Shown here: positions 449 to 13,177 of the stretch, piece after piece
How the letters are laid out: each line of letters starts with the position of its first letter
Position numbering within the stretch: the stretch's first letter is position 1
DNA from: an uncultured Gammaproteobacteria bacterium
GTDB lineage: Bacteria; Pseudomonadota; Gammaproteobacteria; Arenicellales; CAJQKF01
NCBI GenBank assembly: GCA_905478855.1
Contig: CAJQKF010000066.1
Span: 1-40,128 of the forward strand
Direction: 5' to 3'
DNA length: 40,128 nucleotides
The notes under the pieces: generated by a model
What the model was told of the DNA's origin: nothing
What the model saw: only the letters and a program-made list of their open reading frames with translations
Databases searched by the model: none
Position numbers and translations under genes: made by a program

Positions 449-1921
449 TTAGTCATCTACGAAAATAGTGGTAAACCCAGGGTTACTGTCTGCAGTTCCG
501 TCACTTACAACAATTCTAATTGTGCGAGGTGGGTCTAATGTTGGATCGGCCTGTACATTATCAAACTGTACGGCGAGAATGGCCTGTTGATAATCAGAAG
601 ACGATGCTGTTCCCGTTAGGCTGACTGAATCATTATCAGCGATTACAGTAACACCGCTGGGAATGTTGTTAGTATCCAACACAAACGTATCACCCAACTG
701 GGCATCGACAAATGTGATTGTAGCGGATTCGATATTGTCATCAAAATCATCATCCATGATGGATATGTCGGTATCAACTATTGAAATGGGGTCACCTGAA
801 AGAATCGAGAAATCGGTAATGAAATTATTTCCAGATACTGTTGTATCGTCTTCATCAAGGTCTAGTGTAGGAGCCGTATTATTTTGATTTTCCTGATCAA
901 CTTCGTCTCCTTCCGCAACGGTATCTACTATGACAAGTGCATCGGTACCGTTATCCACGCTTGATTCAGTGTCGACCTGTTCTTCGTCGCAACCTTGTCT
1001 TGAGATAAGAATATTATTACTCGAGCTGTTATTGCCCGATGCGGTTGGATTATCACGTACCAGAAAATTCAGTCGATCCGAAACAACATGGAATCCGTCG
1101 TTTGCGAACAATGTGGCGCTGTAGGAGCCATTGGGTAAATCCGCAATACAGGGTCGATCGCCATATCGAATTCGGGTTTCGCCATCTATTTGCCAACTGT
1201 GTCGAAGAATATCTGGTCCTGAGTCTGGATCAAAAGAACGGGTTGCGTCGAGCCGAAGATCGCCCCGTTTAGTTGACGAAATACCTGCTTTAGCCACCGG
1301 TTTGCTGGCAAAAAGCGGTCCTTCACCGGCAGGGAATAGAAGCACTTGATCTATGAGTGTGAACGGTTGAGACTTTCGGGTATTGGTGTTTTGTCGAAAT
1401 TGAATTTTTATCGATTGATTTAAAAATCGAGTGGTATCTATGTAATGAACAAAAAATCGACCATCTCTGGGCTCACTGGGGCATCCTTGATGCAGCCTAA
1501 CCACGCTGGTCAGATAGGAGTGTGCAGTGAGAACGTCGTCATTGCTGTTAAGGATGCGAACTTCAAACTCAACCGGTTTGATGGTTTTCCGACCATCACG
1601 TGTACCGGTCAGGCTGGTAAACATAATGCCGTCTCCGGCATTAAAGCTGTCTGATGTTAAAATACCAACTGAAGAGCGACGGGCACTCTCACCAGATGAC
1701 AGTATGGCGGCATAGTTTCCCGAAAGCTGAATATGGGTAGTGTCTTCTTCAGAGAAACAGTTTCCCTGCTCGACAATATCGGCAATACCGTCACGTTGTT
1801 CTGAGATTGTCCAGCCGATAAGAAATCCAGCTTCAAAGTCGCCATTCGGCAGAAAATCAACCGCTATTGAGGTTGCCGAAAATAAACACAAGAGCAGGGT
1901 TGCGCCGATACTACGAATCAT
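449..1921 (-). CDS. Secreted protein with PKD-like and cadherin-like domains
   Basis: 490 residues. The N-terminus has an arginine and a hydrophobic run (residues 2-20) typical of a Sec signal peptide, with cleavage likely near residue 20-22. Residues about 22-195 begin with a 'PNGDFEAG' stretch as in carbohydrate-binding or DUF642-like jelly-roll modules. Residues about 205-292 look like a PKD fold (LDATRSFDPDSG, then a tryptophan-containing core and an SYSATLFANDG strand). An acidic, asparagine-rich linker (about 293-345) leads to one cadherin-like repeat beginning NTAPTLDLD and ending in VSDGTADSNPG, the type found in tandem in giant RTX-like adhesins. Acidic clusters such as DDDFDDN suggest calcium binding. 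No membrane anchor or sorting signal is visible at the C-terminus, which ends in the repeat. Role inferred: extracellular binding protein. Function beyond that is unknown. Confidence 0.8.
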   Translation of the reverse strand: MIRSIGATLLLCLFSATSIAVDFLPNGDFEAGFLIGWTISEQRDGIADIVEQGNCFSEEDTTHIQLSGNYAAILSSGESARRSSVGILTSDSFNAGDGIMFTSLTGTRDGRKTIKPVEFEVRILNSNDDVLTAHSYLTSVVRLHQGCPSEPRDGRFFVHYIDTTRFLNQSIKIQFRQNTNTRKSQPFTLIDQVLLFPAGEGPLFASKPVAKAGISSTKRGDLRLDATRSFDPDSGPDILRHSWQIDGETRIRYGDRPCIADLPNGSYSATLFANDGFHVVSDRLNFLVRDNPTASGNNSSSNNILISRQGCDEEQVDTESSVDNGTDALVIVDTVAEGDEVDQENQNNTAPTLDLDEDDTTVSGNNFITDFSILSGDPISIVDTDISIMDDDFDDNIESATITFVDAQLGDTFVLDTNNIPSGVTVIADNDSVSLTGTASSSDYQQAILAVQFDNVQADPTLDPPRTIRIVVSDGTADSNPGFTTIFVDD

Positions 1922-8255: not shown

Positions 8256-9431
8256 ATGCGCGACAAGTTCATTATTTCAGGTGGCGGCATCGGTGGATTA
8301 GCCACGGCTCTGGCGCTATCCCTTGCCGGTAAAAAAAGTATTGTACTTGAACAAGCAGCGGAGTTTAACGAAATTGGGGCTGGTATACAGTTAGCGCCAA
8401 ATGCTTTTCACTGCCTAGATTTACTCGGAGTAGGTGAGGCTGCTCGGAGTATTGCGATTTATATTGACCAACTTCGGTTGATGGATGCCACAGATGCGAA
8501 GGAAATTTGCAATATTCCGCTAAAAGAAGATTTTCGTAAGTGGTTTAAAAACCCATATGCAGTTATTCATAGGGCGGATCTTCACGGTATTTTACTTAAA
8601 GCTTGTAGGGCATCCAACTTAATAGAATTACGTGCCTATCATCACGTGATTGGGTATTCTAAAGAGGATGCTGGTGTTTCTGTGCAGGTGAAAAACTCCG
8701 ACAATGTTTGTGGACGGGCCTTGGTTGCTGCAGACGGACTGCATTCAGTTGTCCGAAATACGATGCTAGGAGACGGTGTTCCGAGAATTTCTGGGCATAC
8801 GACCTATCGCTCCGTCATACCAGTGGAACGTATGCCAAAAAACAGTCGATGGAATGCCGCTGCATTATGGGCAGGACCTAAATGCCATATCGTACACTAC
8901 CCCCTGAAGGGCTGGAAATACTTCAATTTGGTGGTTACCTTTCACGATGATGCACAACGAGTGGTTTCAGGTGAATCCGTAAGTGCAGAACAGGTGACTC
9001 GTGGGTTTGATCATATTGCAGAGGAGCCGTTTAATATTGTTCGGCAGGGAATTGACTGGCGTTTGTGGGTGCTTTGTGATCGTGACCCAGTTACCCGGTG
9101 GACAGATGGTCCGGTTGTTTTACTTGGGGATGCGGCACATCCAATGTTGCAGTACTTCGCTCAAGGCGCTTGTATGGCGATGGAAGATGCAGTGTGTCTG
9201 GGAATGATGGTCAAATCTTTCGATAAACCGTCGGAAGCATTTAACCAATATCTTGATCGCCGTATGGTTCGTACTTCCCGAGTTTCGATGTATTCAAGAT
9301 TGATAGGAGATCATATTTATCATCCGTCAGGAGCACAGGCAGCTGTGCGTAATAGTGTAATGTCGGCGTTGAGCCCAGAAGATTGGTATCGAAAACTGAA
9401 CTGGATTTATGGTCCACAGTCGTTTGGGTGA
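8256..9431 (+). CDS. FAD-dependent aromatic monooxygenase (3-hydroxybenzoate 6-hydroxylase / salicylate hydroxylase type)
   Basis: 391 residues, class A flavin monooxygenase. The dinucleotide fold is at the N-terminus with GGGIGG (9-14) and EQ at the end of the second strand; then GAGIQLAPNA, the DGLHSVVR loop, and the FAD-ribityl motif GDAAHPMLQYFAQGACMAMEDA (abbreviated to its key residues G-D-A-A-H-P and E-D-A). The LQYFAQGA segment and the HYPLKGWKYFN strand are typical of 3-hydroxybenzoate 6-hydroxylases and salicylate 1-hydroxylases. Such enzymes use NAD(P)H and O2 to hydroxylate an aromatic acid. No ring-cleavage dioxygenase is present in the window, so the substrate remains open. The ATG at 8256 has GAGG about 8 bases upstream. 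It starts a same-strand run with the ureohydrolase gene 56 bases on. Confidence 0.88.
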   Translation: MRDKFIISGGGIGGLATALALSLAGKKSIVLEQAAEFNEIGAGIQLAPNAFHCLDLLGVGEAARSIAIYIDQLRLMDATDAKEICNIPLKEDFRKWFKNPYAVIHRADLHGILLKACRASNLIELRAYHHVIGYSKEDAGVSVQVKNSDNVCGRALVAADGLHSVVRNTMLGDGVPRISGHTTYRSVIPVERMPKNSRWNAAALWAGPKCHIVHYPLKGWKYFNLVVTFHDDAQRVVSGESVSAEQVTRGFDHIAEEPFNIVRQGIDWRLWVLCDRDPVTRWTDGPVVLLGDAAHPMLQYFAQGACMAMEDAVCLGMMVKSFDKPSEAFNQYLDRRMVRTSRVSMYSRLIGDHIYHPSGAQAAVRNSVMSALSPEDWYRKLNWIYGPQSFG

Positions 9432-9487: not shown

Positions 9488-10432
9488 ATGGTAGACAAGC
9501 CAAATATGGGAGCAATGTTCGGTGGCAAATCAAGTGGAGGGTTTCTTGGTGTTGCCGAAGGCCCGTTGGATAAATCGGTTGATATAGCAATACTGGGAGT
9601 GCCAGCGGCTACCCCCTATGCTTCAGTCGGACCATACTGTGCAACTGCTGCCCGACAGGTCCGCTCGGCACAAGTATGGCCGGGTATTTCGAAGCATCAT
9701 GATTTCGATCTTGGTGAAAAGGTTATTCCGGATAATGTAACCGTTGTCGATCTGGGGGACTTGGATTATAGCGAAGTTGATTTTGTCTCTAACCGTCAGA
9801 ATATAACGAATGCGGTTGAAGAGATTCTATCGATTAAAGCAGTTCCTGTTGTTATAGGCGGTGATGACTCTGTACCGATTCCGGTATTTCAGGCATTTAA
9901 GGATTATGGGCCGGTAACAGTGATTCAGTTCGATGCACATATAGACTGGAGAGATAACGTGGATGGAGAACGTTACGGGCTTTCGAGCAACATGCGACGT
10001 GCATCTGAAATGCCTTGGGTAAAGCATATGGTGCAGATTGGTGCGCGGGGGATTGGTAGTGCGAAGCCGTTGGATTTTCAAGATGCAATTGACTGGGGTG
10101 TGCGATTTTTTCCAATGCGGGAATATCGAAAAAGCTCCTTTGAGAAAGTACTAGCCGCTATACCTAACTCTTTACCGGTAATCATTAATTTTGATATTGA
10201 TGTCATGGATCCCACAGTAGTTCCGGGTGTCATAGGACCGGCACCGGGTGGTTTCGACTATTACGGTGCGGTTGAGATTATTGAGAAAATTGCTTCAAAT
10301 CACGAAATTGCTGGATTCAATTTACTGGAATTTATGCCAGATAACGATATTCAGAATCGCAGTGCATTAGTTGCGTCTCGCATTATTACAACGGTTCTGA
10401 ATCTAGTATCTAAGCAAAAAGGTAAACGCTAG
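9488..10432 (+). CDS. Ureohydrolase (arginase/agmatinase fold) of a divergent subfamily
   Basis: 314 residues with the arginase-fold motif order intact. The first motif, normally GGDHS, is GGDDS (124-128), so a manganese-ligand histidine is aspartate 127. The second, DAHxD, is intact as DAHIDWRD (149-156). The downstream loop that usually carries a catalytic histidine (SHG) reads GLSSNMRRASE. The third motif is NFDIDVMDPTVVPG with both aspartates. The family hydrolyses guanidino compounds (arginine, agmatine, guanidinobutyrate, guanidine) to an amine plus urea. Because several linked changes sit in an otherwise well-kept protein, I infer a specialised subfamily with another substrate, not decay; similar GGDDS proteins are commonly labelled agmatinase in proteobacteria, which I regard as unproven. 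Neighbours are a monooxygenase upstream and an aldehyde dehydrogenase downstream. Confidence 0.85.
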   Translation: MVDKPNMGAMFGGKSSGGFLGVAEGPLDKSVDIAILGVPAATPYASVGPYCATAARQVRSAQVWPGISKHHDFDLGEKVIPDNVTVVDLGDLDYSEVDFVSNRQNITNAVEEILSIKAVPVVIGGDDSVPIPVFQAFKDYGPVTVIQFDAHIDWRDNVDGERYGLSSNMRRASEMPWVKHMVQIGARGIGSAKPLDFQDAIDWGVRFFPMREYRKSSFEKVLAAIPNSLPVIINFDIDVMDPTVVPGVIGPAPGGFDYYGAVEIIEKIASNHEIAGFNLLEFMPDNDIQNRSALVASRIITTVLNLVSKQKGKR

Positions 10433-10760: not shown

Positions 10761-12272
10761 ATGTCGATGACAGATGTGTTTAAAAGTTTAAGTGGGAAGA
10801 TACTTATCAATGGGCAGTATATTGAGAGTACATCCGGTGAGCGAATACCGATTATAGACCCGTCTAGTGAGTCTACGATTGGGGAAATTGCTGAGACTTC
10901 CATGACGGAAATAGATCAAGCAACAGTAGCGGCTAGTAAAGCTCAAAAAGGCTGGTGGCGTTTAAGCGCACTTGAACGTGCAGAAACTATGCATGATATT
11001 GCCAATGAGTTACATGGGCGGAAAGCTGAGCTAGCTGAGGCACTGACTCGAGAAATGGGAAAACCATATAAAGAATCCGCAGACGAAGTTGATTGGTCGG
11101 TATCCGCTATACGTTACTATGCGGAAATTGGTCGTAGTGATGTGGGTAAGGTAATTGGCAATGCGGTAGAGGGGCATTTTAACTACACGCTGAAGTTACC
11201 CCTTGGTACCGTAGTTTCTATTCAGCCCTTTAACTATCCGATGACTTTGCTTGCTTGGGAAGGCGCTGCAGCGTTAATTTGCGGGAATGCAGTCATTGTA
11301 AAGCCTTCGGAATATACCTCTATTACGACACTTCTCTTTGCGGAAACTTTTAACCGTCATCTCCCCGACGGATTGTTTCAAGTTGTAACCGGAGCAGGTG
11401 CTGCGGGTAAGGCACTGGTCGAACATGCAGACACTCATATGGTGGCGTTTACAGGTAGTGTTCCAACCGGTCGCGCGATCGCTGCTACATGCGGCAATTT
11501 GATGAAGCCGACGCTGATAGAAACATCGGGTAATGATCCTTTTATAGTAATGCCAAGTGCGCCGTTGGATGTCGCGGCGCGGGCCGCCGCTTTTTCAGCT
11601 TATATGAACTGCGGGCAGATTTGCGTATCCGCAGAACGGTTTTTCGTGCATAAAGATATTCATGATGAATTTATCGAACTGCTTGCAGAACACGTGAAAG
11701 CTATTCGTATAGGTAATGGACTGGGTAAGGTTGAAATGGGTCCAATGGTCAGTGAAAAGGAACGGGGTCGCTATGAGCGTGTTATTCAAAGGGCTATAGA
11801 GCAGGGTGCAAAAGTACGAACCGGCGGGGGACGTCCGGATGATTTGGAAAAAGGTTGGTTTGTCGAGCCGACGATACTGCAGGACTGCACTGTGGAAATG
11901 GATATATTTCAGAACGAGAGTTTTGGTCCCGTGGCTCCAATATGTAAAGTGAGTAGTTTTGAGCAAGCTATGGAACTAGCAAATGACTCCAAATTCGGCT
12001 TGGGTGCTTGTTTGTATACAACTAATATGAGCGAAACCATGACGGCTGCTAACGAGCTACAAGGTGGCATGGTTTGGGTTAATGCGCCATTATTGGATAA
12101 CGACGGAGGCCCGTTCGGGGGAACGAAAATGAGTGGTATGGGCCGTCAGCTTGGCGCTGAAGGCCTTGAGACATTCCGACAAACTAAGTTCGTTTGGATA
12201 GATCCACATTGTGGTACACAAGATTTCTGGTGGTTTCCGTATGATGACAAAGAGGCATATAAGGGCACGTGA
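10761..12272 (+). CDS. NAD(P)+-dependent aldehyde dehydrogenase
   Basis: 503 residues, full-length ALDH superfamily. Catalytic and cofactor residues are all present: asparagine 158 in QPFNYP, lysine 181 in IVKPSEY, the FTGSVPTG loop (230-237), general base glutamate 254 in IETSGNDP, and nucleophile cysteine 288 in NCGQICVSAERF. It oxidises an aldehyde to the carboxylic acid in the cytoplasm. The C-terminus is unusual in ending with a DFWWFPYDD aromatic tail, which I recognise from a subset of ALDHs but cannot link to a substrate. A strong AGGAGAG ribosome site precedes the ATG. Its stop codon overlaps the GTG start of the EamA exporter by four bases, so the two are translationally coupled; an aldehyde or acid handled here may be what the transporter moves. 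Confidence 0.95.
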   Translation: MSMTDVFKSLSGKILINGQYIESTSGERIPIIDPSSESTIGEIAETSMTEIDQATVAASKAQKGWWRLSALERAETMHDIANELHGRKAELAEALTREMGKPYKESADEVDWSVSAIRYYAEIGRSDVGKVIGNAVEGHFNYTLKLPLGTVVSIQPFNYPMTLLAWEGAAALICGNAVIVKPSEYTSITTLLFAETFNRHLPDGLFQVVTGAGAAGKALVEHADTHMVAFTGSVPTGRAIAATCGNLMKPTLIETSGNDPFIVMPSAPLDVAARAAAFSAYMNCGQICVSAERFFVHKDIHDEFIELLAEHVKAIRIGNGLGKVEMGPMVSEKERGRYERVIQRAIEQGAKVRTGGGRPDDLEKGWFVEPTILQDCTVEMDIFQNESFGPVAPICKVSSFEQAMELANDSKFGLGACLYTTNMSETMTAANELQGGMVWVNAPLLDNDGGPFGGTKMSGMGRQLGAEGLETFRQTKFVWIDPHCGTQDFWWFPYDDKEAYKGT

Positions 12273-13177
12273 ACTCAAGTAGAGGACTGAAAAAATTTGA
12301 GTCTTCTATCGTTAACGCGGATGTAAAGTTTTTCACAGGTGCTGTGTGGATGATCAGCGCCGGATTACTATTTGTCGCTGTAGCAGTCATCGTGCGTCAC
12401 CTGAGTTCTTCAATGCCCTCGGTGCAGGCTGCGTTTATTCGATATGCTTTTGGACTAATAATTCTGTTACCAGTACTACTTCGCATGCAGTGGAGAAATA
12501 TTGGGTCGAAAAGCTATGCTATTTATATTGTCAGAGGAACGATCCATGCTGGCGCCGTTATATTGTGGTTTTTCGCCATGTCTCGCATTTCAATAGCTGA
12601 GGTAACGGCGATAGGTTATACCGCTCCAATATTTACTACGTTGGGTGCGGTTATCTTTTTTAACGAAACAATTCGCATTCGTAGAGTTTTGGCGATCGCA
12701 TTTGGGTTCATTGGTGTGCTAATCATTATACGACCTGGTTTTAATCAAGTAAGTGTTGGCTCACTGGCGCAATTGCTAGCTGCACCATGTTTTGCTGGTT
12801 CGTTTCTTTTGGCTAAGCAGCTTACTAAGTCTCACGCGCCTGGTGATATATTGGCACTTTTATCCGTAGGTTGTACCATGGCGCTTTTGCCCGGTGCATT
12901 ATTAGTTTGGGTAACGCCGAGTGGTACTGAGCTTATATGGCTTATGTTGGTTGCTGTGTTTGCTACAGTGGGACATTATGCGCTAACCCGAGCAATAGCT
13001 TGTGCACCGTTGTCGTTAACCCAGCCTTTCTCGTTTCTGCAGTTATTATGGGCCGTGATATTTGGCTATATCTTCTTTGGTGACGTTCCCGATACTTGGG
13101 TTATTGCTGGAGGTTTACTAATACTAGGATCTGTTACTTATATGTCACACCGCGAGTCAAAGGCTATTTCCAAATAG
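12269..13177 (+). CDS. EamA/DMT-family permease coupled to the aldehyde dehydrogenase
   Basis: 302 residues, about ten hydrophobic helices in two EamA repeats. Recognisable family segments are SMPSVQAAFIRYAFG in helix 2, AEVTAIGYTAPIFTTLGAVIFF in the first repeat, and LTQPFSFLQLLWAVIFGYIFFG with GGLLILGSVTY in the second. The start is a GTG inside the GTGA overlap with the preceding stop codon, a classic coupled arrangement. The family exports or imports small metabolites; direction and substrate are not visible. It is a different DMT subgroup from the permease at 4020-4868. The gene converges on cinA, whose end is 66 bases away. Confidence 0.88.
   Translation: MNSSRGLKKFESSIVNADVKFFTGAVWMISAGLLFVAVAVIVRHLSSSMPSVQAAFIRYAFGLIILLPVLLRMQWRNIGSKSYAIYIVRGTIHAGAVILWFFAMSRISIAEVTAIGYTAPIFTTLGAVIFFNETIRIRRVLAIAFGFIGVLIIIRPGFNQVSVGSLAQLLAAPCFAGSFLLAKQLTKSHAPGDILALLSVGCTMALLPGALLVWVTPSGTELIWLMLVAVFATVGHYALTRAIACAPLSLTQPFSFLQLLWAVIFGYIFFGDVPDTWVIAGGLLILGSVTYMSHRESKAISK

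Follow-up and report, generated by a model that had tools for sequence, protein, structure and literature searches.

GGDDS-type ureohydrolase-family proteins lacking a metal-ligand histidine and the catalytic-loop histidine: a distinct subfamily with candidate guanidino or amidino substrates

The stretch of DNA analysed here (the window, 40,128 nucleotides from an uncultured gammaproteobacterium) carries a gene for a ureohydrolase-family protein in which aspartate replaces a metal-ligand histidine (motif GGDDS) and the histidine of the catalytic loop is missing. Judged by their sequences, proteins of this kind are a real subfamily, and neither an error nor the product of decay. We consider it probable (roughly 0.6) that the window protein is a catalytically competent binuclear metallohydrolase, that is, an amidinohydrolase of the arginase/agmatinase family.

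Results

The gene occupies positions 9488 to 10432 of the forward strand, to which the coordinates of its motifs below also refer, with an ATG start, AGTAGG shortly upstream, and a stop after 314 amino acids; its product matches the PF00491 profile with 179.8 bits (cut-off, 22). The first-pass annotation had described a GGDDS metal site, in which a ligand histidine is aspartate, and a loop, GLSSNMRR, without the catalytic histidine, and both are read in this open reading frame and recur in relatives. The GGDDS motif, which replaces GGDHS, covers residues 124 to 128 (9857 to 9871), and the loop covers residues 164 to 171 (9977 to 10000). In the alignment to E. coli SpeB, the site-A metal-ligand histidine corresponds to Asp127 (9866 to 9868), and the loop histidine corresponds to Leu165. 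The DAHID and DIDVMDP motifs, which had been called intact, were confirmed at residues 149 to 153 (9932 to 9946; metal ligands D149, H151, and D153) and 236 to 242 (10193 to 10213; metal ligands D236 and D238). Five of the six canonical metal ligands (two His and four Asp) are present, the site-A histidine being the one replaced. Glu281 (10328 to 10330), the equivalent of SpeB Glu274, is shared with all eight reference proteins.

Five NCBIfam ureohydrolase models match the protein, all with scores under their own cut-offs; these include the equivalog models for agmatinase (TIGR01230, 120.7 versus 174.3), formimidoylglutamase HutG (TIGR01227, 97.2 versus 229.15), and arginase RocF (TIGR01229, 55.8 versus 227.6). 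The AlphaFold2 model, built from nine sequences and weak in the loop (pLDDT 77.5, pTM 0.84, segments 153 to 162 and 188 to 192 under 50), predicts a normal fold of the arginase/deacetylase family. Its structural matches 1gq6 (VIA Z 32.1, rmsd 2.3, 272 aligned), 3nip (Z 31.8, rmsd 2.9, 286 aligned), and 1wog (Z 31.4, rmsd 2.9, 279 aligned) are tied.

The GGDDS gene is patchily distributed, as none of three genomes of the same family had a match at E ≤ 1e-30. Across the order, GGDDS occurred in 14 of 109 genomes, the window's own included, and 15 of the 109 had a match at E ≤ 1e-55, the one without GGDDS carrying GGDHG. The class (369 genomes) yielded four matches at E ≤ 1e-90, two of which, the window gene and one other, have GGDDS; in the phylum, 28 of 398 genomes had matches of mixed types at E ≤ 1e-72. 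Further relatives came from GTDB contigs (8 loci) and plasmids, while phage records gave only four weak matches (25 to 29% identity). Fragments under 260 amino acids (L046, L068, and L081) and copies in set 1 (L006 to L008) were dropped earlier, and removal of 18 near-identical rows from 103 left 85 for the first tree. All rows were included because they resembled the query or other rows, and the counts therefore hold for this sample.

In this maximum-likelihood tree, from which the site-A and loop columns were excluded, one starred branch (98/93) comprised 36 rows with Asp and 5 with Cys at position 127. This Asp/Cys clade was nested in a starred clade of 60 rows (100/99), every one of which lacks the loop histidine; the remaining 19 rows keep the site-A histidine, mostly within a GGDHG motif, and their loops read, for example, GYSSPIRR or GLSSPIRR. 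One step further out, a group of 12 rows combines GGDHS or GGDHA with a loop of the GHGN type and so has the loop histidine, and Deinococcus radiodurans agmatinase (DrAGM; GGDHS, loop Asn) branches outside that group. Since 19 rows without the loop histidine keep the site-A histidine, the changes map to separate branches. The simplest reading of these sequences is a sequential one, in which the loop histidine was lost first and the site-A histidine then gave way to Asp, with Cys appearing inside one subclade. The "concerted change" proposed in the first-pass annotation therefore does not hold: the loop histidine is absent from the wider clade, GGDHG sisters included, and also from DrAGM.

The window protein belongs to a starred clade of 12 rows (100/100), the other eleven being 53 to 57% identical to it. 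Asp127 and the loop GLSSNMRR are found in 12/12 of these, with L009 reading DGDDS, so neither feature is accidental. Among the 41 Asp/Cys rows, position 165 is Leu in 27, Tyr in 8, and Phe in 6, and D149, H151, D153, D236, D238, and E281 are each present in 41/41; the invariance of five ligands and of Glu281 argues against decay. A second tree (89 rows with plasmid sequences, 12 rows having been removed and 3 near copies left out) gave the same picture, with a less well supported Asp/Cys clade of 42 rows (90/85, not starred) and, at 100/100, a clade of 26 rows that includes the window protein and has loops of the form GLSS[NTS]MRR. One GGDDS protein, L137, had no settled place in this tree, and a second origin of GGDDS is therefore possible.

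The idea of a distinct subfamily was borne out by these data, as the starred clade lies apart from SpeB, GbuA, GpuA, GdmH, and plant arginase, and the window protein stays under all five NCBIfam cut-offs. No agmatinase or guanidinobutyrase of proven function with the same motifs grouped with it: GGDDS is absent from all eight reference proteins in the tree, which are either characterised or of solved structure, and E. coli SpeB falls in another starred group.

Motifs varied in other ways among the relatives. GGDCS (in one case GSDCS) occurs in L052, L084 to L087, L134, and L135, placing Cys at the metal-A position as in Zymomonas arginase; the hosts are S. meliloti, Phyllobacterium, and Geminicoccaceae plasmid records (annotated agmatinase) and four other genomes. 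DADAFNS (L049), DADAFDS (L051), and DQHLD with DLDAFEP (L089 and L142) were also seen. An arginase-family gene fragment on a Sinorhizobium alkalisoli plasmid (L138:7025-7303) is probably a decayed copy. Plasmid record CP070277.1, labelled Dysgonomonadaceae, equals Martelella lutilitoris NZ_CP066787.1 in size (166348) and match scores and is probably mixed or mislabelled.

Upstream of the ureohydrolase gene is a gene for an FAD monooxygenase (8256 to 9431, forward strand; 523.2 with the 3-hydroxybenzoate 6-monooxygenase model, cut-off 459), which ends 56 bases before it and is perhaps co-transcribed with it. An aldehyde dehydrogenase gene (10761 to 12272, forward) lies 328 bases downstream and is overlapped by a gene for an EamA-family transporter (12269 to 13177, forward). 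We compared the neighbours up to three genes away at 37 Asp/Cys loci, the L048 gene, merged by the ORF caller, being set by hand. At the other loci compared, no counterpart of the monooxygenase was found next to the gene, and the dehydrogenase is within three genes in no other of the 37; L119, a more distant locus of the GHGNPLRR type, has a related dehydrogenase directly next to its gene. In the clade of the window gene, conservation of neighbours does not extend past near relatives, and the set of monooxygenase, dehydrogenase, and EamA transporter is not shared. A cyclase-like gene (c7, 5/37 loci) and an indolepyruvate oxidoreductase-like gene (c12, 4/37), both named from reading their sequences, are confined to near relatives. 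A short-chain dehydrogenase (8/37 loci) was rejected as a recurrent neighbour, the proteins being unlike one another (mostly about 25 to 35% identical) apart from two near-copy sets. Elsewhere in the window, neither Pfam nor NCBIfam gave a match at E 0.001 for a 490-aa open reading frame (449 to 1921, reverse strand).

Seven PF00491 genes are present in the draft genome of the host, which measures 4.08 Mb and is 94% complete. The tree group of SpeB and GbuA holds five of the six other paralogues, L004 and L005 being long branches of unsure placement. We found neither a urease gene (urease alpha) nor a urea carboxylase over cut-off in this draft, so released urea would not obviously be used, a point against a urea-releasing enzyme. 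Urease did not co-occur significantly with GGDDS across the order (4/14 versus 16/95, P = 0.28) or for the core GGDDS subset (4/10 versus 16/99, P = 0.084). A second altered ureohydrolase of the host (L004:1480-2388, contig C136) has GGDGA, with Gly for the site-A histidine; its loop, TNANQFTH, also lacks the histidine, and its DAHTD and DMDFFDP motifs are intact. A GGDHG paralogue (L067:8010-16830, contig C31) lies near genes for a TauD-type dioxygenase, hydantoinase A/B, an FAD oxidase, and an HpcH-type aldolase.

Gene context was more telling in relatives, where the best of it points to the metabolism of arginine, ornithine, and citrulline. An amino-acid ABC permease cluster is within three genes in exactly 6 of the 37 Asp/Cys loci, all from one alphaproteobacterial subclade (Shinella twice, Paracoccus, Agrobacterium, Martelella, and one further genome), and in 6/6 the gene follows LysR and an amino-acid (lysine/arginine/ornithine-like) ABC operon. 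Ornithine cyclodeaminase, CtlX, and an Lrp regulator are encoded in four of the six (stretches of 18 to 20 kb), the other two showing none; near copies from Shinella and Martelella likewise have all three. For Martelella, the cyclodeaminase scored 570.8 (cut-off 350) and CtlX 396.2 (cut-off 334), and the binding protein, the sole one tested, was nearest to arginine and lysine/arginine/ornithine binders at 198.1, under the NCBIfam cut-off of 256.35. CtlX is a putative citrullinase, and genetics point to ornithine as an intermediate (PMC9007349, in part). Because the importer, ornithine cyclodeaminase, and CtlX lie near the gene, an arginine-like substrate is favoured in this subclade. Its members are only 43 to 46% identical to the window protein, and no such importer was found within three genes of the window gene or its 11 clade relatives, some of whose stretches are short.

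Other GGDDS members lie near genes of histidine or ergothioneine type, which suggests that specificity differs within the clade. The near copies L136 and L148 have in their neighbourhood an amine importer, an annotated hutH, and a HutF gene that scores over its cut-off; L148 has an annotated hutI as well. In L137 (L137:3202-7921), the GGDDS gene is beside those for S-methyl thiourocanate hydratase (945.9, cut-off 880) and hutI (299.0, cut-off 298.15), an arrangement resembling a gene cluster for sulfur-histidine breakdown. The ammonia-lyases of L148 and L137 scored 458.0 and 175.5, under the hutH cut-off of 539.15, and their substrates are therefore unsure. Ring opening at these loci would leave isothioureido- or formimidoyl-glutamate, amidines that such an enzyme could cut. 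A literature search on thiourocanate and ergothioneine found nothing.

In eight annotated plasmid loci of the sister type that keeps the site-A histidine (L139 to L146), an amino-acid ABC importer adjoins the gene in five, another ABC importer in one, and none in two; a gene annotated argE is present in two of the eight. In L139, L145, and L146, two PF00491 genes flank the amino-acid importer, with an annotated urea carboxylase-associated gene in L139 and L145. The second PF00491 genes of these three loci group with DrAGM (99/89), and the pairs are possibly paired enzymes.

Discussion

Metal binding and hydrolysis by the window protein are predicted from its sequence. Site A would consist of four carboxylates (D127, D149, D153, and D236), with Asp127 standing in for the histidine, and site B (D149, H151, D236, and D238) would be normal. 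With the amidinium or guanidinium carbon of the substrate held in place by Glu281 and Asp153, a metal-bound hydroxide would attack it, and catalysis would proceed without the loop histidine as proton shuttle, giving urea and an ornithine-like amine. The chances that the substrate is a guanidino or amidino compound are about two in three, and that it is arginine-like about one in three.

Characterised relatives bear on both changes. E. coli SpeB (7lol) and P. aeruginosa GbuA (3nio) share with the window protein the fold, Glu281/Glu274, DAHxD, and DxDxxDP but differ in having GGDHF or GGDHT and an HGTxF loop and in forming a separate group. In SpeB, Glu274 and Asp153 contact guanidine, and His126, which aligns with D127, holds a weakly bound Mn, the minimum need being one Mn per site (PMC8125230, in part). 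The H163F variant has activity down to 3 to 5%, and E274A and D153N are weak too (same source, in part); these residues therefore matter, which counts against a competent enzyme. DrAGM (1wog) is the best PDB sequence match of the window protein (115 bits, among the best 60 of 62 listed), and its loop, SNSSPFRR, likewise has no histidine, as noted in PMC8125230, according to which no kinetics are reported for it; however, DrAGM keeps the site-A histidine and lies outside the 60-row clade. In metformin hydrolase MetCa/MetCb (8ryi and 8snf), Asn199 of MetCa takes the place of the loop histidine, akin to the window loop, and N199H lowers activity (PMC11271267, in part); there, however, MetCa keeps all six ligands and the genes are paired. 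Guanidine hydrolase GdmH (7esr) has the fold and five ligands in common with the window protein but keeps the site-A and loop histidines and lies outside the window's clade.

A parallel at site A is the Zymomonas mobilis ZM4 arginase zmARG (6KSY), in which this histidine is also replaced and metal is still bound: the crystal, loaded with zinc, shows Cys92 on the first metal, and with Mn the enzyme hydrolyses arginine with a kcat of 302 per s (PMC6988801, in part). It differs in having Cys rather than Asp and arginine as a shown substrate (same source), and 6KSY is absent among the sequence matches listed (best 60 of 62, 33 of 33, and best 60 of 70). Site-A exchange with activity kept (zmARG) and loss of the loop histidine (DrAGM and MetCa) are thus already known. 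Given the precedents of SpeB, DrAGM, MetCa, and zmARG, neither of the two changes, taken by itself, points to an inactive enzyme or a different substrate; an altered ligand alone is weak evidence for the substrate other than arginine or agmatine that the first-pass annotation suggested, because the Cys-bearing arginase cleaves arginine. A full-text literature search for GGDDS and GGDCS, with most subscription papers outside its scope, did not find the clade, zmARG being the sole ureohydrolase title.

These precedents also lend some weight to the strongest alternative, an unlikely one on balance, that the protein is an ordinary arginase, agmatinase, or guanidinobutyrase whose active site tolerates both changes as neutral variants. 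In its favour are the activity of zmARG on arginine, the weakness of site A in SpeB (PMC6988801 and PMC8125230, both in part), and the alphaproteobacterial relatives near ornithine cyclodeaminase and CtlX. Against this, the protein falls under the NCBIfam cut-offs for agmatinase, HutG, and arginase and within a separate starred clade, and three of the six other host paralogues already exceed the TIGR01230 agmatinase cut-off, with one pairing with SpeB and one with GbuA on the tree.

It is less probable still that the enzyme is HutG-like, with a formimidoyl or isothioureido amino acid produced by ring degradation of histidine or ergothioneine type as its substrate, as the surroundings of L136/L148 (HutF and annotated hutH) and L137 (S-methyl thiourocanate hydratase and hutI) might suggest. 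Asn114 of Trypanosoma cruzi formiminoglutamase may be at the site-A position. Entry 4myn for that enzyme is titled "N114H variant," which would then also speak for such a role. However, HutG model scores are far under the cut-off of 229.15 not only for the window protein but also for L136 (94.7) and L137 (83.1), the ammonia-lyases of L148 and L137 miss the hutH cut-off, and L137 has no settled place on the tree. Co-occurrence of GGDDS with hutU across the order was not significant (9/14 versus 48/95, P = 0.40); the core subset gave 9/10 versus 48/99 (P = 0.017, uncorrected for kinship or subset choice). HutG over cut-off was found in none of 27 genomes (the host and 26 of the class). A HutG role in the host itself is disfavoured, as its hut cluster includes HutF (580.1, cut-off 413.05) and needs no HutG.

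A pseudoenzyme or structural partner subunit, like the metformin hydrolase beta subunit, is very unlikely. Degenerate beta subunits are known in the family (PMC11399263, in part), and the host has seven PF00491 genes, but the window protein has one ligand swapped for a metal-capable residue and five invariant in 41/41, versus three to five of six lost in the MetCb clade (PMC11271267, in part). Moreover, no second PF00491 gene is adjacent to the window gene, which is the single PF00491 match on its contig (C66). Weakest of all, with hardly any chance, is a single-metal amide hydrolase of deacetylase type: histone and polyamine deacetylases have the same fold with one metal and an Asp-His-Asp set, but Asp153, the other site-A ligand, and the guanidinium-binding Glu281 are invariant here and would be needless for such an enzyme.

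Returning to a competent binuclear amidinohydrolase, we tentatively extend it to the whole clade, in a combined proposal that we hold to be possible but doubtful. The Asp/Cys clade would then be an undescribed ureohydrolase class, free of histidine at site A and in the loop, whose subclades act on different amidino substrates, and the substrate of the window enzyme would be a guanidino compound to which no enzyme has so far been assigned. Within that same doubtful proposal, the subclade substrates might be imported modified arginines in the alphaproteobacteria and ring-opened thio- or methyl-histidine products, namely S-methylisothioureido- or formimidoyl-glutamate, near S-methyl thiourocanate hydratase or hut genes.

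Taken together, if these proteins are active, they would be arginase-fold enzymes working with an all-carboxylate site A and no loop histidine, both of which histidines are usually deemed important for catalysis, and the "agmatinase" annotations that these motifs single out might then be incorrect. Testable classes of substrate are suggested by the importer operon and by the thiourocanate cluster.
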